Source: Longimicrobium sp. (GTDB lineage: Bacteria; Gemmatimonadota; Gemmatimonadetes; Longimicrobiales; Longimicrobiaceae). From it: a DNA stretch of 64,000 bases. The DNA is taken from contig DASVTZ010000157.1 in the NCBI GenBank assembly GCA_036387335.1, forward strand, positions 1 through 64,000, given 5' to 3'. The notes under the pieces were generated by a model that ran no database searches, was not told where the DNA came from, and saw only the letters and a program-made list of their open reading frames with translations. How positions within the stretch are numbered: position 1 is the stretch's first letter; each line of letters starts with the position of its first letter. Both the position numbers and the translations under genes were made by a program. Positions 1-59,223 of the stretch are shown here, piece after piece.

Positions 1-57
1 CCGGCGCAGGCGGCGAACGCGGCCAGCACGGCAACCCCGATGGCGATGCGGATCATG
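1..57 (-). CDS. Partial lipoprotein or secreted protein, N-terminus only
   Basis: Reading leftward from an ATG at 57, the first 19 residues are a short basic start, a run of small hydrophobic residues and a Cys (MIRIAIGVAVLAAFAACAG). This is the shape of a lipoprotein signal peptide with the acceptor Cys at residue 17; the -3 residue is Phe, so the lipobox is not ideal. The gene leaves the window at its left edge, so the mature protein and its function cannot be seen. It is divergent from the BlaI-like regulator at 237, and the two share the intergenic region 58-236. Confidence 0.5.
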
Positions 58-165
58 ATTCGACTCGTGTGTGGGTTCGTGATCGTTGCGGCACTACGGC
101 TCACCTATTCATGTTCGATTACAGCCCTGTTTGTTAACGAAGGGTGGTGCTGCCGATCGAGAGGG

Positions 166-194
166 TTGACTTCGCGGGTCGAGTGCTGAATATT
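166..194 (+). promoter_or_regulatory. Predicted sigma70-type promoter of the first BlaI/M56 operon
   Basis: A -35 box TTGACT (166-171) and a -10 box AATATT (189-194) are separated by exactly 17 nt and lie about 40 nt before the BlaI-like start codon. Two small palindromes (AATATT and GCATATGC, 199-206) fall in and just after the -10 box and could be operator material. The TGACA/TGTCA dyad found at the second BlaI locus is not present here. Confidence 0.5.
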
Positions 195-236
195 CCGCAT
201 ATGCTGATTTCTCCGCATTAAGCTCCGGGACAACTG

Positions 237-632
237 ATGGAAGCAAGCGTGCCCGTCGCGCTCAGCCGCCGCGAACGCCAGATCATGGACATCGTCTACC
301 ACCGCGGGCGCGCCACGGCCGCCGAGGTGATGGACGACCTGGCAGATCCGCCCTCGTACAACGCCGTGCGCTCCGCGCTGCGGCTGCTGGAGGAAAAGGG
401 CCACCTTCGGCACGAAGAGGACGGCCGCCGCTACGTCTACCTCCCCACTACGCCGCGGACGAGGGCGCGCACGCACGCCCTGCAGCACCTCCTGCGCACC
501 TTTTTCGGCGGGAGCGCGGAGCAGGTGGTGAACGCGTTGCTGGACGAGACGAAGCTGTCCAAGGCGGAGCTGGAGCGCATGGCGGAGCGCATCCGCGAGG
601 CGCACGCGGAGGAAGAGGAGGAGGCCCGATGA
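237..632 (+). CDS. BlaI/MecI/CopY-family transcriptional repressor (locus 1)
   Basis: This 131-residue protein has the BlaI/MecI layout. A winged-helix domain spans roughly residues 8-80, with the family's RRERQIMDIVY opening, a recognition-helix segment SYNAVRSALRLLEEKGHL and the wing RRYVYLP. A charged helical C-terminus for dimerisation follows. Members repress their own operon and are inactivated by cleavage when the partner M56 membrane peptidase senses a signal. The stop codon overlaps the start of the M56 gene (ATGA at 629-632), so the two are translationally coupled. A 17-nt-spaced promoter lies at 166-194. The protein is clearly a paralogue of the regulator at 52313. The signal it responds to is unknown. 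Confidence 0.9.
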   Translation: MEASVPVALSRRERQIMDIVYHRGRATAAEVMDDLADPPSYNAVRSALRLLEEKGHLRHEEDGRRYVYLPTTPRTRARTHALQHLLRTFFGGSAEQVVNALLDETKLSKAELERMAERIREAHAEEEEEAR

Positions 633-2668
633 TCGAGTGGCTGGCGGGGGCCGGCGAGTTCGCGCTCGCGGTGACGCTCAAGGCGTCGCTGCTCGTGGTG
701 CTGGGATTCCTGGCGGCGGCGTTGCTGCGCGACCGGAGCGCGGCGCAGCGCCACCTGGTGTGGAGCGTCGCCCTCGCCGCGGCGGCCGCGATGCCGCTGC
801 TGCAGCTCGCCCTGCCGAGCATCGAGGTGGCGGTCCTCCCCGCGCCAGTCTCCGCGCCGGCAAGCGTGGTCGTGGCGAACCCCGTGGCACCGGCGGCGGT
901 CGAGGTACGGTCGGCGCCGGTGAGCACGACCGCTCCCGCCGCCGCGCCCGCGCTGCCAAGTCCTACCGTGCTGCTGGCGGGGCTGTGGCTGCTGGGTGTG
1001 CTCGCGCTGAGCGTACGGCTGGCGGCGGGCGTGCTGCGCGTGTGGTGGATCGAGCGCCGCTCCAGCGAGGTGACCGACGACGCGTGGGTGCGGCTCACCG
1101 ACACCCTTTCGCGGCGGCTGAAGCTGGGGCGCATCGTCACCCTGCTGCGCGCCGAGCCCGCGGCGGTGCCGATGACGTGGGGCGTATTCCGGCCGGTGGT
1201 GGTGCTCCCCGGCGAGTCGGCGGAGTGGGACGAGGAGCGGCGCACGGTGGTGCTGGCGCACGAGCTGGCGCACGTGCGGCGCTGGGACGCGCTCACGCAG
1301 TGGGTGGCGCACGTTGCGGTGGTCGTCCACTGGTACAACCCGCTGGTGTGGATGGCCTCGCGCCGCCTGCACGACGAGCGCGAGCGCGCCTGCGATGACG
1401 CGGTGCTCGCCATCGGCGCGCGTCCCTCCGCCTACGCGGACCACCTGCTGACGCTGGTGCAGTCGCTCGGCCGCTCCGAAGGGCCGGTGGCCGCGCTCGC
1501 GATGGCGCGCCGGTCGCAGTTCGAGGGGCGCCTCCTGGCCATCCTGGACCGCGCCATCCCCAGGCGCGGCGTGTCGCGCACGGCGCTGGCGTCCTCGGTG
1601 GTGCTCGCCCTGGCCGCCGCGGCGCCGCTCTCCGCGCTCCGGGCCACGCAGCGGACCGCGCCGGCTTCGCAGAATCACGCGCGCATGCCGTCGGCGACGC
1701 TGCCCGTAGCATCCACGGCCGCGCCCGGGGCGGGTCGCGCGCAAACGTCTGCCCGGACGGTGAAAGGCATGCCGGGTGCGCCGTCCACGACCGCGCTTCC
1801 GCCGGCCGCAACCGTCGCGGGCCGGGACACGGGTGACGTTTCGGAGATGCTGGCGGCCGTGGGGTTGATCGGCTCGTCGGAGGAGCGGACCCGGGTGCTG
1901 ATCGACCTGCTGACGTACCGGCGGCTCTCCCCCGGCGAGTCCGTCACGTTCCTGGAAAGGGCGGGCGAGATGGAGTCCGCGAACAGCGTGCACCGCGTGC
2001 TGGTGGCCGCCCTCGACCACCTTCCGATCGGCGAGCGGCGCGTGCGCGACGCCTTCTTCCGCGCCTTGGAGGGGATGGGCTCCAACGCGGAGAAGCGGGA
2101 CGTGCTGATCGCGGCGCTGCAGCGCTACGGCGATGATGTGGCGCTCGCCTCCGCCGTCTTCCGCGCGACCCACACCATGTCGTCGGACGCCAACCGGCGG
2201 GAGGTGCTGGTCGCCGGGGTGCAGGCGCGCCGGGTGGACGCCCGCACCCGCGGCGACTTCATGGCGGCGCTGGCGGCGATCCAGTCGGACTACGAGCGGT
2301 CGATGGTCGTCACCGCGCTCGGTGGGATGCCCGGCCCCACGACGACGACCGCGGCCGGCGGTGCCGTCTGGAACAGCACCACCACGCACCGTCACATCGA
2401 AGACGAAGTGGAGCGTTACCGGACCGTGCTCGCCGCGCGCAAGGTGCGCCTCAGCCCCGCGCGCGACGAGATCGCCGCGATCGCCGCGGGCGGCTCGTTC
2501 ACGCTGCACGAGACGCGTGCGGACGGGGGCAGCTCGCGGTCGCTCAAGGTGACGCCTTCCGCGTCCGGAGCGCTGCAGTACGAGTACCGTGTGGATGGCG
2601 CCGCGCGCCCCTTCGACGCCAGCGCCCGCACCTGGATGCGGGAGCTGATCCGCTCCAGCGCCAACTAG
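629..2668 (+). CDS. M56 (BlaR1-like) membrane metallopeptidase with C-terminal helical repeats (locus 1)
   Basis: This 679-residue protein begins with hydrophobic membrane segments (about residues 12-35, 42-60 and 112-132), followed by the M56 zinc-protease core with HELAH at residues 211-215 and the family's RRLHDERERACDD motif downstream. M56 receptors sense an external signal and trigger loss of a BlaI-type repressor, which here is encoded directly upstream with a 4-nt overlap. There is no penicillin-binding sensor domain of the classical BlaR1 kind. From about residue 414 to 566 there are instead repeats of about 34 residues sharing the pattern S-x3-R-x2-VL-x-A, predicted to form a helical solenoid. 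A short globular C-terminus ends the protein. The solenoid is a plausible extracytoplasmic ligand or partner-binding region; its target is not evident. Confidence 0.85.
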   Translation: MIEWLAGAGEFALAVTLKASLLVVLGFLAAALLRDRSAAQRHLVWSVALAAAAAMPLLQLALPSIEVAVLPAPVSAPASVVVANPVAPAAVEVRSAPVSTTAPAAAPALPSPTVLLAGLWLLGVLALSVRLAAGVLRVWWIERRSSEVTDDAWVRLTDTLSRRLKLGRIVTLLRAEPAAVPMTWGVFRPVVVLPGESAEWDEERRTVVLAHELAHVRRWDALTQWVAHVAVVVHWYNPLVWMASRRLHDERERACDDAVLAIGARPSAYADHLLTLVQSLGRSEGPVAALAMARRSQFEGRLLAILDRAIPRRGVSRTALASSVVLALAAAAPLSALRATQRTAPASQNHARMPSATLPVASTAAPGAGRAQTSARTVKGMPGAPSTTALPPAATVAGRDTGDVSEMLAAVGLIGSSEERTRVLIDLLTYRRLSPGESVTFLERAGEMESANSVHRVLVAALDHLPIGERRVRDAFFRALEGMGSNAEKRDVLIAALQRYGDDVALASAVFRATHTMSSDANRREVLVAGVQARRVDARTRGDFMAALAAIQSDYERSMVVTALGGMPGPTTTTAAGGAVWNSTTTHRHIEDEVERYRTVLAARKVRLSPARDEIAAIAAGGSFTLHETRADGGSSRSLKVTPSASGALQYEYRVDGAARPFDASARTWMRELIRSSAN

Positions 2669-2730
2669 CGGAAGAGGCGCGTCCTCTCCCCGTAGCTCCA
2701 GTACACGAGTGCTGATTTTTCGGCGGAGGA

Positions 2731-2819
2731 AATGGTCTCACGCAAAGGCGCGAAGCCGCAAAGAAAGTTGATCTGCGTCTTTCCTTAGCGTCTTTGCGCC
2801 TTTGCGTGACATCCATTTC
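2731..2819. repeat. Intergenic hairpin with iterated-word arms (CGCAAAGG type)
   Basis: The left arm (from 2731) and right arm (to 2819) are near-perfect reverse complements, including an uninterrupted TCACGCAAAGGCGC block. The arms consist of loosely repeated 8-9 nt words (CGCAAAGGCG, CGAAGCCGC, CGCAAAG). It separates the M56 gene from the DUF5916 gene and could act as a transcript end or RNA-stability element. It is one of about eleven hairpins of this design in the window. Confidence 0.75.
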
Positions 2820-2901
2820 CTCTCAAATGCCGGAAAACGTTTTCTGAACCGTCGTGAGTGCTGAAAATTCGGCACTGGTCCGCTACCCCAAAGGCACACC
2901 G

Positions 2902-5514
2902 ATGCGATCCCTCTCCTGGTGGTACACGATGGCGGCGGCGCTGGCCGTCCTGGCGCTCCCCGCGGCGGCGCAGGATGCGGCGCCCGCGCGCAAGCAGGCG
3001 CGGGCAGAGCGCATCGCCGGGCGCGCGCCGGTGATCGACGGGCGGCTGGACGACGAGGCGTGGAGCGCCGCCACACCCATCACCGACTTCACCCAGAAGC
3101 TCCCCACCGAAGGCGCGGCGCCCACCGCGGCGACCGAGGTGCGCATCCTCTTCGACGCCGCGTACGTCTACGTGGGCGCGCGGATGCAGGCGGTGCCGGA
3201 GGGGATCCGCGCGCCGCTCACCCGGCGCGACGTGCCGCTGCTGGCGGAGCACATCCGCGTCTCCTTCGACACGTACCTGGACCGCCGCACCGCGTACAGC
3301 TTCGGCGTGACGGCGGCGGGCGCGCGCATCGACGGCTACCACGGCGGCGACAGCGAGTCGATGGACTTCAAGTACGAGCCCGTCTGGGAGGTGCGCACCG
3401 CGCGCGACTCGGCGGGGTGGACGGCGGAGCTGCGCATACCGCTCAGCCAGCTTCGCTTCATCGCGCGCCCCGAGCAGACGTGGGGGCTCAACATCACCCG
3501 CTGGATCCCCAGCCGCGAAGAGAGCCTGTACTGGGTCGTCATCCCCGCCAGTCAGAGCGGCTACGCGTCTCGCTTCGGCGAGCTCACGGGGCTCAGCGGG
3601 GTGCGCCCGGTGCGCCGCATCGAGGCGATGCCGTACGTATCTACCGGCGCGACGCTGCGCAGCGGCGTGGACCCCGCCGATCCGTTCACCGACGCGCGGG
3701 AGGGCGCCGTACGCGCCGGCGCGGATCTCAAGGTGGGCCTGGGATCGAACCTCACGCTCGACGCCACCGTCAACCCGGACTTCGGGCAGGTGGAGGCGGA
3801 CCCGGCCGAGGTGAACCTGGGCGTGTTCGAGACCTTTTTCGGCGAGAAGCGGCCCTTCTTCACCGAGGGGAGCCAGCTCCTCTCGGGCGGCGGCAACAGC
3901 TACTTCTACTCCAGGCGCATCGGCGCGGCGCCGCGCGGCGCGGCCAGCGGCGACTTCGTGCGGCGGCCGGACGACTCCACCATCCTCGGCGCAGCCAAGC
4001 TGACGGGGCGCCTCCCCTCCGGCCTCTCGGTTGGCCTGCTGGGCGCGGTCACGGACCGGGAGCGGGCACGCGTCTACCACGCGGACGAGGACAGCGTGGC
4101 GCTGGTGGACGTGGAGCCGCGCACGGCGTACGCGGTGGGAAGCGTGCAGCAGCAGATCGGGAAGAGCGGCTCCACCATCGGCGCGACCCTCACCGCGGTG
4201 GCGCGGGACCTGGAGGGCGGCTCCCCGCTGGCGGCGCGCCTCCCCGCAGGCGCGTGGAGCGGCGGGGTCGATTGGGACCTGCGCTTCGGCAAGGGCGCGT
4301 ACCAGGTGAGCGGCTTCGCGGGCGGAAGCCACGTGCGCGGCGACTCGCTGGCCGTGCTGCGGCTCCAGCGGAGCTCCGCGCGCTACTTCCAACGCCCCGA
4401 TGCCGGCCACCTGGAGGTCGACCCGTCGCGCACCTCGATGGCGGGGTACACGGGCGGGCTGACCGTGGCGCGCATCAGCGGCGAGCACTGGCTGTGGAGC
4501 ACCGGCGCCAGCGTGGAGTCGCCGGGGCTGGAGCTGAACGATGCGGGGCAGCTCGCAACCGCAGACGACATCAGCGCGTACGCCCAGCTCCAGTACCGGC
4601 AGACGAAGCCGCGCGGCGCCTTCCGCAGCTACGACGTGTTCCTGACCTCCGACGCGGAGTGGAACCTGGACGGCGTGCGCATGGGCGGCGCGGTGGCGCT
4701 GGACGCGGTCGGCACCTGGCGCAACCGCTGGCGCAGCGACTTCAGCGCCTTCTACCAGCCCCGCGCGCAGAGCGTGAGTGCGTCGCGCGGCGGGCCGCTG
4801 GTGGGGACGCGGGCGCAGTGGGCCGTCATCAACCGGCTGGCCAGCAGCAGCGCGGCGCGGTTCCGCTGGAACGGGCGCGTCTACTACGGCGAGAACGAGG
4901 ACGGGCGCGCGACGTACCGGCTGAGCGGCGGCGTCGCGTTCCGCCCCGGCCCGCGCTGGCAGCTCTCCATCGACCCCAACTACCTGCGCACCACCCCCGT
5001 CCGCCAGTACGTCGCTACGCTGAACGATGGGCCGGAGGCGACGTTCGGGAAGCGCTACGTCTTCGCGTCGGTGGGGCGCAGCGAGTTCTTTGCGCAGATC
5101 CGCCTCAACTACCTCTTCACCCCGGACCTGTCGCTGGAGTTCTACGCCGAGCCGTTCGCGTCCAGCGGGCGCTACCACACCTTTGGCGAGCTGCCGTCGG
5201 CGGGGAGCCACGAGCTGGCGCTGTACGGAAGCGACACCACGCGCGTGCGGCGCGAGGGGAACTCCACGCGCGTCTTTGGCGCCCCGCGCGACGCGGTGGT
5301 GGAGGACTTCAACGTGCGCTCCTTTCGAAGCAACGCGGTGCTGCGCTGGGAGTGGCGGCGCGGAAGCTCGCTCTTCGTGGTCTGGCAGCAGGACCGCGCC
5401 GGCGAGCGCGACGAGATCGCTCCCGTCGGCGTGCGCTCGCTGGCGGAAGCGCTGGACGCGCCCGGCGACCACCGCCTTGCGATCAAGATGACGTACTGGA
5501 TTCCGGTGCGGTGA
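2902..5514 (+). CDS. DUF5916 outer-membrane protein with CBM9-like N-terminal domain (locus 1)
   Basis: The 870-residue product starts with a signal peptide (MRSLSWWYTMAAALAVLALP, cleavage after AAAQ). A CBM9/DOMON-like beta-sandwich domain follows, with the typical DGRLDDEAW entry and ILFDAAYVYVGARM. The DUF5916 region has the signature NPDFGQVEADPAEVNL followed by EKRPFFTEG. The last several hundred residues alternate like a transmembrane beta-barrel and end in an aromatic strand (MTYWIPVR). I chose the ATG at 2902 because it opens the signal peptide; an upstream in-frame GTG at 2854 adds only hydrophilic residues. Members are common in Gemmatimonadota and Bacteroidota; their substrate is not established. 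A close homologue lies at 56397, also downstream of a BlaI/M56 pair. Confidence 0.85.
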   Translation: MRSLSWWYTMAAALAVLALPAAAQDAAPARKQARAERIAGRAPVIDGRLDDEAWSAATPITDFTQKLPTEGAAPTAATEVRILFDAAYVYVGARMQAVPEGIRAPLTRRDVPLLAEHIRVSFDTYLDRRTAYSFGVTAAGARIDGYHGGDSESMDFKYEPVWEVRTARDSAGWTAELRIPLSQLRFIARPEQTWGLNITRWIPSREESLYWVVIPASQSGYASRFGELTGLSGVRPVRRIEAMPYVSTGATLRSGVDPADPFTDAREGAVRAGADLKVGLGSNLTLDATVNPDFGQVEADPAEVNLGVFETFFGEKRPFFTEGSQLLSGGGNSYFYSRRIGAAPRGAASGDFVRRPDDSTILGAAKLTGRLPSGLSVGLLGAVTDRERARVYHADEDSVALVDVEPRTAYAVGSVQQQIGKSGSTIGATLTAVARDLEGGSPLAARLPAGAWSGGVDWDLRFGKGAYQVSGFAGGSHVRGDSLAVLRLQRSSARYFQRPDAGHLEVDPSRTSMAGYTGGLTVARISGEHWLWSTGASVESPGLELNDAGQLATADDISAYAQLQYRQTKPRGAFRSYDVFLTSDAEWNLDGVRMGGAVALDAVGTWRNRWRSDFSAFYQPRAQSVSASRGGPLVGTRAQWAVINRLASSSAARFRWNGRVYYGENEDGRATYRLSGGVAFRPGPRWQLSIDPNYLRTTPVRQYVATLNDGPEATFGKRYVFASVGRSEFFAQIRLNYLFTPDLSLEFYAEPFASSGRYHTFGELPSAGSHELALYGSDTTRVRREGNSTRVFGAPRDAVVEDFNVRSFRSNAVLRWEWRRGSSLFVVWQQDRAGERDEIAPVGVRSLAEALDAPGDHRLAIKMTYWIPVR

Positions 5515-5525
5515 AAACGGATGGC

Positions 5526-5613
5526 CTCACACAGAGCCACAGAGGCAACGGCAAGGGCACAGAGAGAACCCCTCTGGCTGTTCTTGCCTTGCCCCTCTGT
5601 GGCTCTGTGTGAG
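5526..5613. repeat. Intergenic hairpin with iterated-word arms (CACAGAGC type)
   Basis: A perfect 20-bp inverted repeat (5526-5545 with 5594-5613) built on CTCACACAGAGCCACAGAGG surrounds a partly self-complementary loop. It lies between convergent genes ending at 5514 and 5626, so it probably serves as a transcript end for one or both. The same word family recurs at 40058-40137. Confidence 0.8.
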
Positions 5614-5625
5614 ACCCCTTTGGAT

Positions 5626-6189
5626 CTACTGTGGGAGGTACTGCCGCGGGATCGGGCGCGCGGCGGTCTCGGCGGCCCAGTAGACGGAGACGACCCACCA
5701 GCGCGTGCCGTCGTTCACGAGCTGGATGCTGTTGATGCCGCGCGTCCGCACCGTGTCCGCCTCACCGCCTCCTTCGTAGGTGCTGAAGACGTGCGCGATG
5801 GGGCCGTACTCGTCCACCTTGCGCGAGATCTCCCGCTCGCGGAAGCCGATTCGCTCCAGCACCGGCCCGGTGACCGCGATGTAGTCGTTGACCTCGAGTA
5901 ACCGCATCCCGGTGCTGCCGTTGGGCCGCGTGCCGGTGGGGATCAGCTTGCCGCCGGGGATGAAGAGCGAGCGCATGCGGTCCCAGTCGCGCCGCGCGCC
6001 CACCGGCCCGGAGATCACGTCGTAGAGCGCCTTGATGATCGCGTCGATGGAGCCCACGTCCTCCGCCTTTGCAGCCGTGGCGGACACGGCGACGGGGTGC
6101 GGAACGGGCTGCGGGGGCGTGGCCTGCGCAAAGAGCGCCGGCGCCGGTGCCGCCAGCGCCGTGAGGGCGAGAAGGACGAAGGTGCGCAT
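5626..6189 (-). CDS. Secreted NTF2/SnoaL-like protein (locus 1)
   Basis: The 187-residue product has a signal peptide (MRTFVLLALTALAAPAPALFAQA). It is followed by a single alpha+beta domain resembling the NTF2/SnoaL-like fold: an opening helix (DAIIKALYDVISGP), a segment with RSLFIPGGKLIP, and final strands NSIQLVNDGTRWWVVSVYW. Such domains serve as small-ligand binders or enzymes. I see no diagnostic catalytic residues, so the function is open. It is convergent with the DUF5916 barrel gene, the same arrangement seen at 56397-59670. Confidence 0.7.
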   Translation of the reverse strand: MRTFVLLALTALAAPAPALFAQATPPQPVPHPVAVSATAAKAEDVGSIDAIIKALYDVISGPVGARRDWDRMRSLFIPGGKLIPTGTRPNGSTGMRLLEVNDYIAVTGPVLERIGFREREISRKVDEYGPIAHVFSTYEGGGEADTVRTRGINSIQLVNDGTRWWVVSVYWAAETAARPIPRQYLPQ

Positions 6190-6321
6190 GGGCGATTCCG
6201 TTCTGGAGGGTGGATTTCCCGGCCGCGCCGGGGCAGTCGCACGATGATAGTGCCGGGGACGCTATGGAAGCCAGGCAGATGCTCGGGTGAGCGGAAGCCA
6301 ACTCACCCGAAGCCATCTCCA

Positions 6322-13262: not shown

Positions 13263-13330
13263 CCACGCGGAGACGCGGAGACGCAGAGAGAGCTCAGCGC
13301 CTCTCCCCGCGTCTCCGCGCCTCCGCGTGA
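13263..13330. repeat. Intergenic hairpin with iterated-word arms (CGCGGAGA type)
   Basis: The arms 13264-13292 and 13301-13329 are nearly perfect reverse complements. Each consists of repeats of the word ACGCGGAG with minor variation. The hairpin lies between the convergent LysE-family gene and the small membrane protein at 13367. Related arms occur at 23945, 42164, 46138 and 59140. Confidence 0.8.
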
Positions 13331-19965: not shown

Positions 19966-20039
19966 AAGTGCTAAGTGCCAAGTGCTAAGTGCTGAAAGAA
20001 CCCTGGCACTCAGGACCTAGCACTTAGCACTTAGGACTT
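19966..20039. repeat. Intra-operon hairpin with iterated-word arms (AAGTGCT type)
   Basis: The left arm (19966-19994) is four tandem versions of AAGTGCT/AAGTGCC, and the right arm (to 20039) repeats the complement (AGCACTTAGCACTTAGG). It lies between the peroxidase-like gene and arsS, which are otherwise arranged as an operon. It could set the relative amounts of the two messages. Confidence 0.75.
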
Positions 20040-22285: not shown

Positions 22286-22428
22286 GGTGCGTTAGTGCGT
22301 GAGTGCGTTAGTGCGTTTTTATCTGTCATCCTGAGAGAGTCGCCCCGCTGAGCTGCGCCTCACTCGGGATGACAGAACGTGCCTCGCCAGTGCGGCGCAC
22401 CAACGCACTAACGCACTAACGCACTTCT
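22286..22428. repeat. Nested inverted-repeat element (GTGCGTTA outer arms, TCTGTCATCCTGAG inner arms), copy 1
   Basis: Outer arms of iterated GTGCGTTA/GTGCGTGA words (22287-22316) pair with AACGCACTAACGCAC (22402-22424). Inside them, TCTGTCATCCTGAG (22322-22335) pairs with CTCGGGATGACAGA (22363-22376). The element separates two minus-strand genes and its right arm encodes the last residues and stop codon of the TVP38 protein. The same nested design occurs at 36182-36457. Confidence 0.8.
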
Positions 22429-40057: not shown

Positions 40058-40137
40058 GGCCTCACACAGAGCCACAGAGAGAACCGCAAAGGGTTTCTCT
40101 GTGCTTTCAGTTTCCTCCGTGTTCTCTGTGTGAGGCT
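40058..40137. repeat. Intergenic hairpin with iterated-word arms (CACAGAG type, copy 2)
   Basis: GCCTCACACAGAG (40059-40071) pairs perfectly with 40124-40136. A second stem (AGAGAACC with GGTTTCTCT-like sequence) lies inside. It fills the gap between the convergent TetR and amidohydrolase genes and probably ends both transcripts. Confidence 0.78.
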
Positions 40138-46136: not shown

Positions 46137-46189
46137 ACACGGAGGCACGGAGAAGAACATCTCTCCGTGCCTCCGCGTCTCCGCGTGAG
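46137..46189. repeat. Intergenic hairpin with iterated-word arms (CACGGAGG type)
   Basis: CACGGAGGCACGGAG (from 46138) pairs with CTCCGTGCCTCCG (46163-46175), and the right arm continues with CGTCTCCGCGTGAG. It lies just after the ettA stop codon and upstream of the protease gene on the same strand. The 45909-46212 interval otherwise shows only the possible N-terminal extension of the protease. Confidence 0.7.
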
Positions 46190-52245: not shown

Positions 52246-52298
52246 TTGACCTCACCCGCAAGGGATGCTAGTGTACTGACAGAATGTCAATACACTAG
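52246..52298 (+). promoter_or_regulatory. Promoter with overlapping dyad operator, BlaI locus 2
   Basis: TTGACC (52246-52251) and TAGTGT (52269-52274) are 17 nt apart. The -10 box lies in the left arm of a perfect inverted repeat: CTAGTGTA (52268-52275) with TACACTAG (52291-52298). A second inner inverted repeat (TGACA, GAA, TGTCA) is at 52277-52289. The position, overlapping the -10 and start site, is that expected for autorepression by the BlaI-like protein encoded 15 nt downstream. Confidence 0.8.
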
Positions 52299-52312
52299 CA
52301 TAGAAGGTGTGC

Positions 52313-52708
52313 ATGTCCGCTCCCTCGCAGTTCGATCTCGGGCGCCGCGAGCGCCAGATCATGGATGTGGTGTTCAGGCTGGGTAGGGCCACGGGGGCCG
52401 AGGTGCACGGGGCGCTCCCCGATGCGCCCAGCTACTCCGCGGTGCGCGGGATGCTGCGCCTGCTGGAAGAGAAGGGCTACCTGCGCCACGAGCAGGACGG
52501 CCCCCGCTACGTCTACCTCCCCACCGCCGCGCCTGGCGAGGTGAGCCAGACCGCGCTCCAGCACCTCCTGCAGACCTTCTTCGGCAACTCGCGCGAGTCG
52601 GCGGTGGCGGCGCTGCTGGAGCTGCCGGACCAGCCGCTTTCCGAAGACGAGTACCACCGGCTCTCACGCCTGCTGGACGAAGCCCGCGACCCCGCAGAGG
52701 ACGAATGA
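52313..52708 (+). CDS. BlaI/MecI/CopY-family transcriptional repressor (locus 2)
   Basis: The 131-residue product has the same winged-helix layout as the protein at 237: RRERQIMDVVFRLGRATGAEVH, SYSAVRGMLRLLEEKGYL, RYVYLP, and a C-terminal dimerisation helix. Sequence identity between the two is obvious by eye over the HTH. An in-frame GTG lies two codons upstream (52307), but the ATG at 52313 has a better placed GAAGGTG. The stop overlaps the M56 start (ATGA at 52705-52708). A dyad operator overlaps its promoter. Confidence 0.92.
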   Translation: MSAPSQFDLGRRERQIMDVVFRLGRATGAEVHGALPDAPSYSAVRGMLRLLEEKGYLRHEQDGPRYVYLPTAAPGEVSQTALQHLLQTFFGNSRESAVAALLELPDQPLSEDEYHRLSRLLDEARDPAEDE

Positions 52709-55563
52709 ACCCGCCTCCCATCTCCGCCGCCGAAGCGCTCGCCGTGCTCGGCCTGCTGGCCAAGGCCACGCTCGTGGTGGCCGTCGCCGGGCTGGCGGCC
52801 GCCTGCCTGGTGCACCGCGGCGCATCGGCCGCCACGCGCCACATGGTCTGGGCGCTCGCCATCGGCGCCGTGCTGTCGCTGCCGGTGCTCACGATGCTCC
52901 TGCCGGGGTGGCGGGTGGCCGTGCTGACCGAGACGGAGCCGATCCCCGCCTCGTTCTCCGCTCCCGCCGATCCGCTGTCGGCGGGGCCGGTGGTGGCGGA
53001 TGTGGCGCCGGAGGATGCCGCTCCCTCCACCGCGGCGCCGGCGGAGGTGCCCGCGCCCATCCGCGTGGAGTGGCTGCTGGCCGGGCTGTACGCGGCGGTC
53101 GCGCTGGGGCTGCTGGCGAGGGTGGCGGTGGGGCGGTGGAGCGTGGCGCGCCTGGCGAAGAGCGCGACTCCGCTGGACTCGCCCGAGTGGCGGGACATGC
53201 TGCGCGACCTGATGTGGGTGGCGGAGGTCGAGCGCCCCGTGCGCCTGCTGCGTAGCGACCTCGCCACGATGCCGATGACGTGGGGGACGCGGCACCCGAT
53301 CGTGCTCCTTCCCGCGGCGGCGGACGGATGGTCGGCCGACCGGCGGCGCGTGGTGCTGTTGCACGAGCTCGCCCACGTGGCGCGGCGCGACTGCCTGATG
53401 CAGACACTGGCGGCGCTGGCGTGCGCCTTCTACTGGGTGCATCCGGGCGTGTGGTACGCGGCGCGACGGATGCGCGCCGAGCGCGAGCTGGCGTGCGACG
53501 ATCGCGTGCTTGCGGCCGGCACCCGCGCGCGCAGCTACGCCGCGCACCTGCTGGAGGTCGCGCGCGCCTTTCGCCCGGCCGGCGGAGCGTCGCCGGTGGC
53601 GGTGAGCATGGCGCGCCCGTCGCAGCTCGAAGGGCGTATGCTGGCGGTGCTCGACGCCGTGCGCAGCCGCCGCACTCCGTCGCGGCGGACGAGCGCCGTG
53701 GCGGCCGGGGTCGCGCTCGTCGTCTCCGGGCTGATGGCGGCGGTGCATCCGGCGGTTGCCAAGGTGCTGCCCCGGATGTCGGCCGAGGCCGGTCAGCAGG
53801 AGCACGTGGTGGAGCGCACCGTCGCGGCACGGGCGGGCGGGCGGCTGGATCTGGTGATGGAGGATGAGGCCGGCGTCGAGGTGGTCGGGTGGGAGCGCGA
53901 AACCGTCTTCGTGCACGCCGAGTTCACCGGCGCGCGCGCGCGCGAGGGGCGGTTGGATGCCGTCGCGTCCGCGGGCGGGGTGCGCGTGACGGAGCGGCGC
54001 CCCGGTGGGGCCGGGCGCCACGACAAGCTGCGCATCTGGGTGCCGCGGCGCTTCGACGTGGCGGTGCGCTCCACGGGCGGCGGGCTGTCGATCCGCGAGG
54101 TGGAGGGCCGCTTCACCGGGACCTCCGGCGGCGACGGGCTGCACCTGGACCGGGTGCGCGGCACGGTGGACTTCGCCACCGAGGGCGGCGGGCTGATGGT
54201 CGCGCGGTCGCGGCTGGACGGCGAGATCCGCACTCGCGGCGCGGGCGCGCTTCTGGACCGCGTGACCGGTGGGCTGAACGTCGTGAGCAACGGCGCCGCC
54301 GTGGTGCGCGGACGCATCGAGACCGGTGACGGCGATGACGAAGCGAGCCCCGCGCCGAACGGGCAGCGCGTGCACGTGGTCTCCGATCCGGAAACGGAGA
54401 TGGAGCTGGACTGCACCGCCGGGACCTGCACGTTGACCAAGGAGTGGAAGAAGCCCGCGCGCGCCCGCTCCGGCGGCAACGGCTTCGCCTACCTCACCGG
54501 CACCGGTGAGGAGCGGCGCGCGTCGGTCGAGGCGCTCGCCCGCAACGCGCCCCCCGAAACCGCCGCAGTGGCGCTGGAGCGGCTCGCCTTCCAGGAGACG
54601 GACCCCGAGGTGCAGCGCGAGGCCGCCGAGTCGCTCGCGGGGTTGCCGGGCGAGGCGGGGTTGCAGGGGCTGCTCAAGATCGCCCGCGCGCATCCCGGCG
54701 AGGAGGCGCGCCGCGAGGCCGCGGAAGGGCTGGGGATGCTCGCCTGCGACGAAGCCATCGCTGCGTTGCGCCGGATGGTGGCGTACGATCGCGATCCCAC
54801 CGTGCAGGGCGAGGCGGTGGAGGCGCTGGCCGGCATCCTGGGGCGCGACGACGTCTCCAGCACGGCGCGCGGTGTGGTACGCGCCGCCCTCCGCGAGATC
54901 GCGCGCACGCACCCCGTGCCCAGCGTGCGCGCCCGGGCGCGCGCCGAGACGGGCGACGCGCCGCGCGAGATGTCGCAGGCAGTGCCCGCGACCGGGGAGC
55001 GGGTTCCGCTGGCGCCCGGCGCGCGCGAGCTGGCGCTGCGCAACGCTGCGGGCGCGTCGGGTGCGGATGCGGCCGCCATCCGCCGCCTGCGCCCCGCGCT
55101 CGACCGCGCAGCCACGAGCCCGGTGGACCTGGTGCAGGACCGCGCCACCTGGGCGCTCACGCAGGTGCGCGGCGGCGAGCTCATCCGCCCGCTCGTGAGC
55201 GCGCTGGGCGACGCGGACTGGCGGGTGCGCGCCTACGCCGCCTGGGCGCTGGGCGTCGCGGGGGAGCGCAGGGCGGTGGATGCGCTCGCCGGCGCCCTGC
55301 GCGACCCGAACTGGCGGGTGCGCGCCAACGCCGCTTCGTCGCTGGCGCAGGTGCCGGACGCACGCGCGGTGACGGCGCTCGGCTCCGTGCTGGGCGACCC
55401 CGCCTGGCAGGTACGCGCCGGCGCCGTCGACGCCCTCGCCGCCCTCGGCGACGCGCGCGCCATCGCGATGCTGGAGCCGCTGCTGCGCGATCCGCACATG
55501 GCCGTCCGCGGCGCCGCGGAACCCGCCATCGCCCACCTTCGAAGCTCACGGGCGCGCGGGTAG
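52705..55563 (+). CDS. M56 (BlaR1-like) membrane metallopeptidase fused to DUF4097-like and HEAT-repeat domains (locus 2)
   Basis: The 952-residue protein starts with M56 membrane segments and the zinc motif HELAH at 220-224, followed by RRMRAERELACDDRVL. A membrane segment (about 332-352) leads to a beta-rich region (about 370-580) with DUF4097-type repeating strands such as VRSTGGGLSIREVEG and VDFATEGGGLMVARSR. The rest (about 600-950) is HEAT/PBS-lyase-like repeats, for example DPNWRVRANAASSLAQV. No penicillin-binding domain is present. I infer that the two C-terminal domains face outward and form the sensor. It shares the BlaI-coupled start with the locus-1 homologue but has a different repeat type. 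Confidence 0.85.
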   Translation: MNPPPISAAEALAVLGLLAKATLVVAVAGLAAACLVHRGASAATRHMVWALAIGAVLSLPVLTMLLPGWRVAVLTETEPIPASFSAPADPLSAGPVVADVAPEDAAPSTAAPAEVPAPIRVEWLLAGLYAAVALGLLARVAVGRWSVARLAKSATPLDSPEWRDMLRDLMWVAEVERPVRLLRSDLATMPMTWGTRHPIVLLPAAADGWSADRRRVVLLHELAHVARRDCLMQTLAALACAFYWVHPGVWYAARRMRAERELACDDRVLAAGTRARSYAAHLLEVARAFRPAGGASPVAVSMARPSQLEGRMLAVLDAVRSRRTPSRRTSAVAAGVALVVSGLMAAVHPAVAKVLPRMSAEAGQQEHVVERTVAARAGGRLDLVMEDEAGVEVVGWERETVFVHAEFTGARAREGRLDAVASAGGVRVTERRPGGAGRHDKLRIWVPRRFDVAVRSTGGGLSIREVEGRFTGTSGGDGLHLDRVRGTVDFATEGGGLMVARSRLDGEIRTRGAGALLDRVTGGLNVVSNGAAVVRGRIETGDGDDEASPAPNGQRVHVVSDPETEMELDCTAGTCTLTKEWKKPARARSGGNGFAYLTGTGEERRASVEALARNAPPETAAVALERLAFQETDPEVQREAAESLAGLPGEAGLQGLLKIARAHPGEEARREAAEGLGMLACDEAIAALRRMVAYDRDPTVQGEAVEALAGILGRDDVSSTARGVVRAALREIARTHPVPSVRARARAETGDAPREMSQAVPATGERVPLAPGARELALRNAAGASGADAAAIRRLRPALDRAATSPVDLVQDRATWALTQVRGGELIRPLVSALGDADWRVRAYAAWALGVAGERRAVDALAGALRDPNWRVRANAASSLAQVPDARAVTALGSVLGDPAWQVRAGAVDALAALGDARAIAMLEPLLRDPHMAVRGAAEPAIAHLRSSRARG

Positions 55564-55602
55564 CCCCCGCGCACCGGATCCCTCAACCGAAAGCGCTTCA
55601 TC

Positions 55603-56361
55603 ATGCTAAAAATTTCGCACAGGAACGCCGCCCTGGCGCTCCTTACCGGACTTGCGTCCGTCATCGCGACCACATCGGACGCACAGACCATCGCACAGCA
55701 CGTGGCGTCAGTCCGCGACGGCACGGTGCAGATCCACTTCGCCGCGGCGCCGGGGGCGTGCGGCGATGGGCGGGCGGTGATCGGGCGGCGGCTGGCAGGC
55801 GGCGGGGTGGCGCTCTTCGTCCCCAACCTGACGCATCTCCCCGCGGATGCGGAGGCGGCATGCCGGCCCGGACCGGTGGGGGGGGCGCTGGGGGGGGCTG
55901 GCGGGCGGGTGGCTTCGGTGCGCGCCACGGCTGGCCCCGCACCACAGACACCCGCGGTGTGGGTGGCACCGGCCGATGCGAGCGCGTTCCTCCTCGACGT
56001 GGCGATGCGGAGCGATGGACAGGTCGCGCGGGGAGCGCTGGTGCCCGTCTTCCTGCTCGATGGCGACGGCGTGTGGCGCGGGCTGCTGCGGGTGGCGCGG
56101 TCGGCGCGCGCGCTTGAGGCGCGGAGCATGGCATCCAAGGAGCTCGGGCGGCGCGCGGCGGCCACCATCGCGGGCGGCGACCGCGGGCACCAGGCAGACA
56201 CGGAGCTATCCAAGAAGAACGGCGGCGAGGCGGAATGGCTCGTCATCGCCACGCGCGACGCGGACCCGGCACGCCGCCGCGCCGCGCTGCAGCTGCTGGG
56301 CAAGGACGGCACTCCGCGGGCGCTGGACCTCTTCGAATCGATCCTGGCCCGCGCACGATGA
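55603..56361 (+). CDS. Secreted protein of unknown function between M56 and DUF5916 genes
   Basis: The 252-residue product has a signal peptide (ALALLTGLASVIATTSDAQ) and a beta-rich first half (GTVQIHFAAAPGACGDGRAV, GVALFVPNLTHLPAD). A C-terminal helical part with one HEAT-like unit follows (DADPARRRAALQLLGKDGTPRALDLFESIL). It is not a known family to me. Two G8 runs (55878-55885 and 55890-55897) lie inside the gene and could cause slippage. Its stop overlaps the upstream in-frame ATG (56358) of the DUF5916 gene, so all four genes from 52313 probably form one operon. Confidence 0.65.
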   Translation: MLKISHRNAALALLTGLASVIATTSDAQTIAQHVASVRDGTVQIHFAAAPGACGDGRAVIGRRLAGGGVALFVPNLTHLPADAEAACRPGPVGGALGGAGGRVASVRATAGPAPQTPAVWVAPADASAFLLDVAMRSDGQVARGALVPVFLLDGDGVWRGLLRVARSARALEARSMASKELGRRAAATIAGGDRGHQADTELSKKNGGEAEWLVIATRDADPARRRAALQLLGKDGTPRALDLFESILARAR

Positions 56362-56396: not shown

Positions 56397-59123
56397 ATGC
56401 GCCGCATCCACCTCACGCTTCTCCTGATCCTCGCCTGCGCGCCCGCCGCCGCCGCCCAGGTGCCCGCCGACTCCGCCCGCGCCGCCACGCGCGCCATCCG
56501 CGCCGCGCGGGTGAGCGGAACGCTGCGCATCGACGGCAAGCTGGACGAGGCCGCGTGGGCGGCGGCCGGCGTGGCGGACGCCTTCACCGAAAGCTATCCC
56601 AACCCGCGCGCGGCGGCGCGGGAGCGCACCGAGGCCCGTATCCTCTTCGACGACGCGGCCGTGTACGTGGGCGTGCGGATGTACGACTCGCGCCCCGACT
56701 CCATCGCGGCCCAGCTGGCGCGGCGCGACGCCACCGGGATCTACTCGGACTGGGTGCACGTGATGCTGGACACCTATCACGACCGGCGCACCGGCTTCCG
56801 CTTCGCCGTGAACCCGCGCGGGGTGAAAAAGGACTCCTTCCACTTCGACGACACCAACGAGGATCTGAGCTGGGATGCCGTGTGGGAGGTGGCGACGCAG
56901 GTGGACTCGGCGGGGTGGACGGCCGAGTACCGCATCCCGCTGTCCCAGCTCCGCTACGGCTCGCGCGAGCCGGCCAGCGGGCGCGTGTGGGGCGTGCAGG
57001 TGCAGCGCGACGTAGCGCGGCGCGAGGAGCGCACCTCGTGGTCGCCGTGGACGCAGAGCGACGGCGGCTTCGTGTCGCGCTTCGGCGACCTGGCGGGGCT
57101 GGAGGGACTGCGCACCCCGCGCCGCCTGGAGATCCAGCCGTACACCAGCGCCCGCGTGGACCGCTCGCCGCAGGGGGACCCGGCGAATCCCTTCTTCCGC
57201 GCCAACGACATGACCGCGTCTGCCGGCGTCGACGTCAAATACGGGCTCCCCTCCGGCCTCACGCTGACCGCGACCGTCAACCCCGACTTCGGCCAGGTGG
57301 AGGTGGACCCGGCGGTGGTGAACCTGAGCGCGTTCGAGGTGCAGTTCCCGGAGCGGCGCCCCTTCTTCACCGAGGGCACCGACATCTTCCGCTTCGGCCA
57401 TCCCACCAACTCCTTCAACAACTACGGCTTCACGCAGCCGTTCTACTCGCGCCGCATCGGGCGGCGGCCGCAGCGTTCGCTGGGAGGGCGGATCGGCGAG
57501 GACGAGGTGCTCTTTTCCGACGCCCCGGAGCAGACGACGATCGCCGCGGCGGCCAAGCTGAGCGGGCGCACGCGGGGCGGCTGGTCCGTCGGCATTCTGG
57601 ACGCGGTCACCACGGGCGAGAAGGCCACCTATCTCGGCCGGCGCATCGTGGACGGTGACACGGTGCTGGGTGAGCGCTCGGCGCTGGTGGAGCCGCTCTC
57701 CAACTACTTCGCCGGGCGCGTGCGGCGCGACCTGCGCGGCGGGCAGAGCGTGGCGGGCGCGATGTTCACCTCCACCCACCGCGACCTGGGCGACGCGGCG
57801 CTGGGCGGGATGCTCCGCTCGTCCGCGTACATGGGCGGCGTGGACTTCGACCACTCGTGGGGGAAGCGCACCTGGGACCTGAACGGGTTCCTCTCCGGGA
57901 GCACCATCGCGGGGGAGCGCGGGGTGATCGCGGCGGCGCAGAACGCATCGACCCGCTACTTCGCCCGTCCCGATGCGGACCACCTGCGCCTGGACAGCAC
58001 CGCAACCCGGCTGGATGGGTACGCGGGCGCTCTGGCGCTGGCCAAAACGAGCGGCAAGCACTGGCTGGGCTCGCTCACCTTCCAGACGGTGAGCCCCGGT
58101 TTCGAGGTCAACGACGCCGGCTTCCAGACCCGCGCCGACTATCGCTCGCTGTCCACGTTCGTCATGTACCGCGAGACGCGGGCGGGGCGCCGCTTCCGCA
58201 ACTACAACGCGTTCGCGTACAGCAACCACGCCTTCAACTTCGGCGGCGATGAGATCTTCGAGTCGTACAACGTGGGCGGGAACGTGCAGCTCGCCAACTT
58301 CTGGACGCTGGGCGGCCGCGTGGGTGGGAGCCCGGAGTACTTCAACGACCGCCTGACGCGCGGCGGTCCGCTGGCGAGCGTGCCGGCGCAGTGGAGCACG
58401 GGGCTGAACGTGCGCACGGACAGCCGCAAGCGGGTGATCGGCGGGCTGAACCTGAGCTACCGCACCGACACGTCCGGCGAGTTCGACCACGTGGTGGGGG
58501 TGACGCTCGATGCCCGCCCCAGCTCGGCGGTGCGCGTTCGATTGGAGCCGCAGTGGGTCAACGAAAAGGACACGGACCAGTTCATCCGCTCCCTGCCCGA
58601 CTCGCTGGCGCGCGCCACCTTTGGCCGCCGCTACGTCTTCGCGGACCTGGAGCAGACCACGGTGGCGCTGGGGACGCGCGTGGACTGGACCTTTACGCCG
58701 CGCCTGAGCCTGGAGCTGTTCGCGCAGCCCTTCTTCGTGCGCGGCGACTTCCGCGACTACAAGGAGTTCGGGACGCCGGGCGAGTACCGCTTCCGCGTCT
58801 ACGGCCGCGACCGCGGGACGGCGGTTCGCAACGACACCACTGGCGTCATCACCCTCGACGCTGACGGCGCCGGCCCCTCCGCCCCCTTCCGTGTGGCGCG
58901 CGGCTTCGGCGAGCGCGACTTCTCGCTGCGCAGCCTGCGGGGCAACGCCGTGCTGCGCTGGGAGTACCGCCCAGGCTCCGTGCTCTTTTTCGTCTGGCAG
59001 CAGGACCGCAGCGGGCTGGACTTCACCGGCGACTTCATGGACGCGCGCAACGACGGCTCCATCCTGCGCGATCCGGCCCGCAACATTTTCCTGGTAAAGG
59101 CGACGTACTGGATCGGGGGGTGA
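56397..59123 (+). CDS. DUF5916 outer-membrane protein with CBM9-like N-terminal domain (locus 2)
   Basis: The 908-residue product has a signal peptide (RIHLTLLLILACAPAAAAQ) and the CBM9-like entry LRIDGKLDEAAW with ARILFDDAAVYVGVRMYD. The DUF5916 signature NPDFGQVEVDPAVVNLSAFE precedes ERRPFFTEGTDIF, and a long barrel region ends in a short aromatic strand (KATYWIGG). It resembles the protein at 2902 over its whole length. I start it at 56397, where GAGG stands 5 nt upstream and the signal peptide begins; an ATG at 56358 overlaps the previous stop. Its role, probably binding or passage of an external polymer or small ligand, is inferred from the fold. Confidence 0.88.
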   Translation: MRRIHLTLLLILACAPAAAAQVPADSARAATRAIRAARVSGTLRIDGKLDEAAWAAAGVADAFTESYPNPRAAARERTEARILFDDAAVYVGVRMYDSRPDSIAAQLARRDATGIYSDWVHVMLDTYHDRRTGFRFAVNPRGVKKDSFHFDDTNEDLSWDAVWEVATQVDSAGWTAEYRIPLSQLRYGSREPASGRVWGVQVQRDVARREERTSWSPWTQSDGGFVSRFGDLAGLEGLRTPRRLEIQPYTSARVDRSPQGDPANPFFRANDMTASAGVDVKYGLPSGLTLTATVNPDFGQVEVDPAVVNLSAFEVQFPERRPFFTEGTDIFRFGHPTNSFNNYGFTQPFYSRRIGRRPQRSLGGRIGEDEVLFSDAPEQTTIAAAAKLSGRTRGGWSVGILDAVTTGEKATYLGRRIVDGDTVLGERSALVEPLSNYFAGRVRRDLRGGQSVAGAMFTSTHRDLGDAALGGMLRSSAYMGGVDFDHSWGKRTWDLNGFLSGSTIAGERGVIAAAQNASTRYFARPDADHLRLDSTATRLDGYAGALALAKTSGKHWLGSLTFQTVSPGFEVNDAGFQTRADYRSLSTFVMYRETRAGRRFRNYNAFAYSNHAFNFGGDEIFESYNVGGNVQLANFWTLGGRVGGSPEYFNDRLTRGGPLASVPAQWSTGLNVRTDSRKRVIGGLNLSYRTDTSGEFDHVVGVTLDARPSSAVRVRLEPQWVNEKDTDQFIRSLPDSLARATFGRRYVFADLEQTTVALGTRVDWTFTPRLSLELFAQPFFVRGDFRDYKEFGTPGEYRFRVYGRDRGTAVRNDTTGVITLDADGAGPSAPFRVARGFGERDFSLRSLRGNAVLRWEYRPGSVLFFVWQQDRSGLDFTGDFMDARNDGSILRDPARNIFLVKATYWIGG

Positions 59124-59139: not shown

Positions 59140-59211
59140 CTCACGCGGAGCCGCGGAGACGCAGAGAGAGATTCAGCCCCTCTCCTTCGCGTCTCCGCGT
59201 CTCCGCGTGAG
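59140..59211. repeat. Intergenic hairpin with iterated-word arms (CGCGGAG type)
   Basis: CTCACGCGGAGCCGCGGAG and following (59140-59170) pair with the reverse-complement arm at 59180-59211. It lies between the convergent DUF5916 and NTF2-like genes, exactly as the hairpin at 5526-5613 does in locus 1. Confidence 0.8.
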
Positions 59212-59223
59212 CCCATTCTGTCT

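Follow-up and report, generated by a model that had tools for sequence, protein, structure and literature searches.

Introduction

In Staphylococcus aureus, the sensor domain of BlaR1 senses the beta-lactam and the metalloprotease of BlaR1 derepresses the targets of the repressor BlaI (PMC9834060). In mycobacteria, BlaI is reported to repress several genes beyond its own operon (PMC12565901, PMC8265638). Here we analyse a 64,000-nucleotide stretch of Longimicrobium sp. DNA (contig DASVTZ010000157.1; hereafter the window), which comes from a 5.8-Mb genome assembled into 265 contigs and which contains two loci, a left and a right one, where the gene of a BlaI-family repressor is followed by the genes of an M56 membrane metallopeptidase and of an exported protein of the DUF5916 family. 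When an M56 protein is paired with a BlaI, annotations often name it a beta-lactam sensor. We propose that in this family of bacteria BlaI and M56 quite probably form a unit in which BlaI sits on palindromes at its own promoter and before effector genes, above all those of DUF5916 proteins. Our literature search gave no paper on the DUF5916 family, its function or its regulator, and none on BlaI-M56 in these bacteria.

Association of DUF5916 genes with BlaI-M56 pairs

A sequence-only reading of the window had described the two loci as having identical gene order and the same gene families, and had taken them for a module in which the BlaI-M56 pair controls a putative outer-membrane barrel, the DUF5916 protein. 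The order BlaI-M56-DUF5916 and the ATGA overlap between the BlaI and M56 genes (629-632 and 52705-52708) are indeed present in both loci, but the orders are not identical, with an extra gene (55603-56361) lying in the right locus.

The simplest alternative to a module, also raised in that reading, is that chance unites two abundant families, this genome alone having 15 BlaI and about 9 DUF5916 genes. We therefore give the neighbourhood count together with its expectation, calculated from the gene density, for 14 genomes of Longimicrobiaceae having 108 DUF5916 and 96 BlaI genes. Of the 108 DUF5916 genes, 22 follow a BlaI gene on the same strand at a distance of at most 8 kb, against 0.59 expected, while none is located upstream of BlaI and one is divergent. 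The excess, the strongly one-sided orientation and the matching operators described below refute chance pairing within this family, leaving it practically no probability, and DUF5916 genes being no more frequent beside BlaI-M56 pairs than beside other genes, the outcome that by the sequence-only reading would undo the module, is not what is seen. Two other families of the order, represented by 20 genomes with about 118 DUF5916 and 78 BlaI matches in tables that were read by eye, have 2 DUF5916 genes downstream and 1 upstream of BlaI. Because only 2 of about 118 are located downstream there, the module is largely specific to this family.

The same genome has a third module, on contig C195, consisting of BlaI, M56 and two DUF5916 genes. 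A module can also do without DUF5916: in another genome (L051, G008:C215), the genes of two exported proteins, and none of DUF5916, come after BlaI-M56 with tandem operators. In a sister species (G004) the surroundings of the left locus are conserved at 89-92% identity, while BlaI, M56 and DUF5916 are gone save for a remnant (L054, G004:C74:44500-52000), a fused BlaI-M56, which still has two predicted operator sites ahead of it and one behind it. From this comparison, the three genes are read as having been lost together as a unit, with misassembly at the decayed module being possible in an assembly that is fragmented into many contigs.

Predicted operators

The left-locus palindrome was first spotted by eye before BlaI and again between the M56 and DUF5916 genes. 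The left-type palindrome can be written as TGCTGAAWWTTCAGCA, and that of a second class as TGCTAA-N4-TTAGCA. The palindromes over the BlaI promoter mostly come as tandem copies at a spacing of 18-19 bp, and further copies are present between the genes of M56 and DUF5916. The exact sequence AGTGCTGANNNTTCNGC has three matches in the 5.8 Mb, each of them in the left locus (one before BlaI and two before DUF5916), and the palindromes having one mismatch include two of the third module, at C195:143, before BlaI, and at C195:3028, between M56 and DUF5916. The left-type modules number seven, from six genomes; each has the palindrome ahead of BlaI, in most of them as an 18-bp tandem, and one or two further copies in its M56-DUF5916 gap. 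The 18-bp tandem of the left locus is seen in L001, L003, L007, L010, L012, L051, L052 and L053.

With a weight matrix trained solely on the BlaI-promoter sites of six other left-type modules, the window being left out, the top five sites in the window (starting at 182, 2857, 200, 55602 and 2708) all lie within the two loci, with scores from 30.1 to 15.8, and the sixth scores 6.5. The same matrix on 50 random 64-kb sequences gave a best score of 14.8 and a mean of 7.0. At 10 other loci a site equivalent to the third of the four left-locus operators (O3, Table 1) is located 44-67 bp past the stop codon of M56. In the 14 genomes, TGCTGANNNTTCNGCA occurs chiefly at BlaI promoters and in M56-DUF5916 gaps, with the few sites elsewhere about equal to the 4 matches of a reversed-pattern control. 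One left-type site precedes an S41 peptidase gene.

In the right locus, the tandem before BlaI is weak against the matrix of the TGCTAA class, with scores of 10.3 and 9.0, and is conserved in L009; L005 has a clean tandem of the right-locus half-sites, TGCTAGTACACTAGCA-ca-TGCTAGTGTACTAGCA. The site at 55602 ranks first with the TGCTAA matrix (23.9) and is also kept in L009. The modules of the TGCTAA type (L002, L006, L011, L015 and L017) have a site before BlaI and before DUF5916 in five of five cases. A third class of BlaI has the palindrome TACGAANNNNTTCGTA (L004, L008, L014, L016 and L030), which in L008 is also located 57 bp past M56. As a side observation, at L024 (G000:C238) a third-class palindrome, TACGAAACATTTCGTA, lies at 2816, after the M56 gene and before the gene of an exported protein, while the promoter of the BlaI gene there bears a TGCTACGATCGTAGCA site.

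It could be argued that another regulator binds the palindromes and that the BlaI gene is merely one of its targets, as the same site class is present before several exported-peptidase genes and before lone DUF5916 genes. However, the three BlaI classes pair with the three palindrome classes, with the recognition helix of BlaI changing alongside (YSAVRAALRLL, YSAVRALMRIL and YTTVLKMLQIM), and the tandem copies on the BlaI promoter itself fit autoregulation, making another regulator improbable. The control of DUF5916 by BlaI gains support because the same palindromes are present at the BlaI promoter and before DUF5916, which upholds the module proposed in the sequence-only reading. It is likely, to a fairly high degree, that BlaI binds the palindromes and controls DUF5916.

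Table 1. Positions in the window of the genes, predicted operators and other features of the two loci. Gene starts come from simple prediction, and distances hinge on them.
Feature	Position	Strand	Remarks
Sigma-70-like promoter, left BlaI	166..194	+	−35 TTGACT (166-171), 17-bp spacer, −10 AATATT (189-194)
O1, putative operator	182..201		AGTGCTGAATATTCCGCATA; rank 1, score 30.1; exact genome-wide match in this locus only
O2, putative operator	200..219		TATGCTGATTTCTCCGCATT; tandem, 18 bp from O1; rank 3, score 19.0
BlaI-family repressor, left	237..632	+	PF03965, E 1.2e-28
M56 membrane metallopeptidase receptor, left	629..2668	+	PF05569, E 3.1e-38; HELAH at residue 211
O3, putative operator	2708..2727		AGTGCTGATTTTTCGGCGGA; about 41 bp past M56 stop; rank 5, score 15.8
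Iterated-word hairpin, M56-DUF5916 gap	2738..2809		Dispersed repeat, not module-specific
O4, putative operator	2857..2876		AGTGCTGAAAATTCGGCACT; about 25 bp before DUF5916 start; rank 2, score 27.7
Exported DUF5916 protein, left	2902..5514	+	PF19313, E 3.1e-67; PF06452 (CBM9_1), E 5e-6
Putative operator, right BlaI	52266..52300		Degenerate tandem TGCTAGTGTACTGACA-gaa-TGTCAATACACTAGCA
BlaI-family repressor, right	52313..52708	+	PF03965, E 3.4e-24
M56 metallopeptidase receptor, right	52705..55563	+	PF05569, E 1.9e-31; HELAH at residue 220
Operator-like site, start of HEAT-like gene	55602..55621		CATGCTAAAAATTTCGCACA; left-matrix rank 4, score 16.9
Exported HEAT-like protein between right M56 and DUF5916	55603..56361	+	HEAT_2, E 0.005 (weak)
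Exported DUF5916 protein, right	56397..59123	+	PF19313, E 9e-67; CBM9_1, E 4e-12

Promoters and transcript layout

The −10 box of the left BlaI promoter falls inside O1, and this promoter is the sole promoter-like match in positions 1-6300. In all 17 BlaI promoters that were checked, TTGAC is located at −16 to −20, or at −35/−36, from the palindrome, and therefore the palindrome covers the −10 box, as in most of them, or sits just beyond it. At 11 loci the gap operators are located 41-67 bp past the M56 stop, right behind a hairpin, and most of these hairpins are GC-rich. There DUF5916 may be blocked either by promoter occlusion or by a roadblock behind a terminator-like hairpin, and the sequence is compatible with both because the gap operators have no clear −35 box.

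In the roadblock case, BlaI bound behind the terminator-like hairpin would stop the read-through from M56 rather than occlude a promoter, consistent with the placement of the operators directly behind the hairpin at the 11 loci and with the gap operator often being far upstream of the DUF5916 start, with no TTGAC box nearby. By contrast, lone DUF5916 genes, with no M56 gene upstream, also bear an operator, with a TTGAC box ahead of it in about six, and O4 is close to the DUF5916 start, so that we consider the roadblock rather unlikely. Still less likely is that the genes form a single transcript, DUF5916 being controlled via the BlaI promoter only and the gap palindromes being something else. 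Such a layout would suit the right locus, which is tightly spaced (the ATGA overlap, 39 nt, and a further possible ATGA overlap at 56358, where an alternative start of DUF5916 would overlap with the HEAT-like gene) and which has its clear tandem operator ahead of BlaI. It does not suit the left locus, where a 233-bp gap contains a hairpin and two operators, nor most modules, where the operator is just beyond a GC-rich, terminator-like hairpin downstream of the M56 stop, nor the lone DUF5916 genes bearing their own operator. For the left locus a separate DUF5916 transcript is more likely than a shared one.

Lone DUF5916 genes and other candidate targets

We sampled 49 DUF5916 genes having no neighbouring BlaI, picked regardless of motif. 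An operator of the TGCTAA type precedes 15 of them, in each case in the promoter zone, while 2 of 129 control upstream regions score as high, one of which holds the BlaI gene of L051 and the other of which is located at L106, likewise a BlaI locus. Of the five lone genes of this genome, L033 alone has the operator.

In six genomes, the exact TGCTANNNNNNTAGCA sites are those of BlaI promoters or modules and of DUF5916 promoters, and those preceding other genes, which encode exported peptidases (M16, M13 and a Met-zincin), an exported repeat protein and a DsbD-like protein; a further site is between an AAA ATPase and a permease. The M16 site is present in the own genome (C8) and has a counterpart in G004. 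Their total is not enriched, with 23 sites against 25 of the reversed pattern, the latter probably being as frequent owing to CpG-richness, and it is the location alone that is informative, because the reversed-pattern control gives as many sites. A TGCTACTAAACTAGCA palindrome is conserved before the M16 peptidase gene in the two species (L112, G000:C8:9945; L113, G004:C27:25894).

A second element, AACCTT-(13-19)-TCCAA, is present in 8 of 54 DUF5916 upstream regions (L071, L077, L078, L080, L081, L086, L006 and L011) and in 1 of 107 controls. It resembles a promoter of an extracytoplasmic function (ECF) sigma factor, and may give DUF5916 genes a second input.

Receptors, exported partners and neighbouring features

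Both window BlaI proteins pass the cut-off of Penicillinase_R (PF03965), 22.6 bits. The C-terminal ectodomain of the left M56 consists of SDxERRxVL repeats of about 30 residues and a beta-rich domain, and that of the right M56 of HEAT repeats (HEAT_2, E 2e-37). PF19313 and the CBM9-like N-terminus of the DUF5916 family are found in both DUF5916 proteins, the left one having a signal-peptide-like start, MRSLSWWYTMAAALAVLALPAAAQ. Between the two loci the identities are 55% for BlaI, 42% for M56 (protease part only) and 38% for DUF5916. At these identities the two loci are old paralogues and not a recent duplication. The search of the left M56 against genome contigs gave distant matches only, the best being an Acidobacteria locus at 41%. 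The AlphaFold model of DUF5916, built from the two window sequences only, has a predicted local distance difference test (pLDDT) score of 27.6, too low for a fold to be read from it; a PDB sequence search gave no solved relative of DUF5916, and an Rfam scan of five leader regions gave no match.

Nine loci encode, directly after M56, an exported protein that resembles M56 ectodomains. It has SDxEKRxVL repeats in L001, L003, L007, L010, L012 and L053; in L013 it has the beta-rich part common to the M56 ectodomain, and in L005 HGVTPEYxREMRALGF repeats (E 7e-37 to the M56 ectodomain). For the HEAT-like protein of the right locus the resemblance is weak (BLAST E 0.007), and the left locus of the window has no gene for such a partner. 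Receptor and partner of the SDxEKR class have the beta-rich part and the repeats in opposite orders. These likenesses hint that the exported partner may take part in sensing. The exported repeat proteins of L005, L003, L010, L012, L053 and L116 have no convincing Pfam family and mirror the M56 ectodomain of their own or related loci.

The sequence-only reading had also counted a convergent NTF2-like protein and a hairpin at the convergent end as parts of the module. The shared families extend to BlaI, M56 and DUF5916 and not to the two convergent proteins, which show no detectable relationship (mutual BLAST E 1.8) and of which the right one only has a Pfam match (Lumazine_bd_2). The other modules searched have no relative of either protein next to them, and this holds also for a near-identical locus of the right type in a sister species. 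The left NTF2-like gene persists among the conserved flanks in G004, which has lost the module. The NTF2-like neighbour is therefore rejected as a module member. The hairpins are likewise rejected as a module feature: they are dispersed repeats, because iterated-word hairpins are also present at 2738-2809, 13266, 40059 and 46140. In full, the dispersed hairpins of the window are at 2738-2809, 5526-5613, 13266-13319, 40059-40136, 46140-46175 and about 59141-59212, with words such as CGCAGAG, CACAGAG and CGCGGAG, and further iterated-word hairpins are at 19966-20032 and 22287-22425, with the words AAGTGCT and GTGCGTTA.

Discussion

The gene order, the predicted operator sites, their placement and their conservation are read from the sequences themselves. 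Based on these, we propose the following model. Without a signal, BlaI dimers would repress the BlaI-M56 operon and the DUF5916 gene. The M56 receptor, which is predicted to be a non-beta-lactam one, would sense an envelope signal through its repeat-containing ectodomain, with the exported partner encoded beside M56 in many modules perhaps assisting. The zinc protease of M56, which would face the cytoplasm, would then inactivate BlaI, presumably by cleavage, and the genes would be derepressed, with DUF5916 being a putative outer-membrane protein. Dispersed DUF5916 genes and some exported peptidases would belong to the same regulon. The signal may be envelope stress or peptides, which is a guess made because exported peptidases are among the operator-bearing genes. 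In the widest form of the model, a set of M56 receptors, differing in ectodomain class and each having a matching exported partner, would sense envelope or nutrient peptides and, through class-specific palindromes, control dispersed DUF5916 proteins, exported metallopeptidases (M16, M13 and Met-zincin), an S41 peptidase and DsbD as one envelope regulon, a form that we hold tentatively, at somewhat less than an even chance.

Several points weigh against the control of DUF5916 by BlaI. The association is mostly restricted to one family, as counted above for the 20 genomes outside it. The right-locus operators are degenerate, a second operator before DUF5916 was not found in L005, L014, L016 and L018, and no clear −35 or TTGAC box is beside the M56-DUF5916 gap operators. 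The TGCTAA-type operator is missing before 34 of the 49 lone DUF5916 genes, including four of the five in this genome. Moreover, the weight matrices rest on few sites and were made after the sites had been spotted by eye, though not from the window.

Note that no sensor domain was found in the BlaI-M56 pairs here and that their predicted operators point to exported surface proteins. For DUF5916, a family without known function, the model provides a first predicted regulator and a route to testing its role. The predicted operator sites are short and specific, and are amenable to in vitro testing.

Comparison with known systems

The loci are like BlaI-BlaR1 and MecI-MecR1 of staphylococci and bacilli in having a winged-helix BlaI, an overlapping downstream M56 gene with HEXXH (PF05569 and HELAH in both window receptors) and a predicted operator on the BlaI promoter, the palindrome over the own promoter being found here by sequence. 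They are unlike BlaR1 and MecR1 in that the ectodomain consists of SDxERRxVL or HEAT repeats and that the locus has no beta-lactamase gene. A Pfam scan found no penicillin-binding (class D-like) sensor domain in the window M56 proteins, and NCBIfam blaR1_generic scores 92.6 and 79.9 bits against a cut-off of 400, matching the protease part only. The operators also differ, being TGCTGAAWWTTCAGCA or TGCTAA-N4-TTAGCA here while BlaI, MecI and CopY have a TACA/TGTA box (PMC7253601); this box, TACANNTGTA (PMC7253601), is absent from the left operator, and the right operator holds TGTA and TACA, yet not as TACANNTGTA.

The CopY/TcrY copper repressors belong to the same repressor superfamily and are the best NCBIfam match of both window BlaI proteins, though sub-threshold (56.7 and 43.9 against a cut-off of 121.95 bits). 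Unlike in CopY, the operator differs from RNYKACANNTGTMRNY (PMC7253601), and the partner is a protease and not a copper pump. The CXC motif, which in CopY is C-terminal and binds metal, is absent from both window BlaI sequences, and these are taken to have no CXC metal site because the main sequences have no cysteine, the sole one being in an alternative GTG-start extension of the right BlaI.

The proposed action outside the own operon is like that reported for mycobacterial BlaI (PMC12565901, PMC8265638), which is actinobacterial, with other targets and no DUF5916. As for the DUF5916 (PF19313) proteins, those of the window match the family over the full length, with the CBM9-like N-terminus. 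Taken in this light, a system of the "penicillin-sensor" type has probably been turned to the control of cell-surface proteins in this family.

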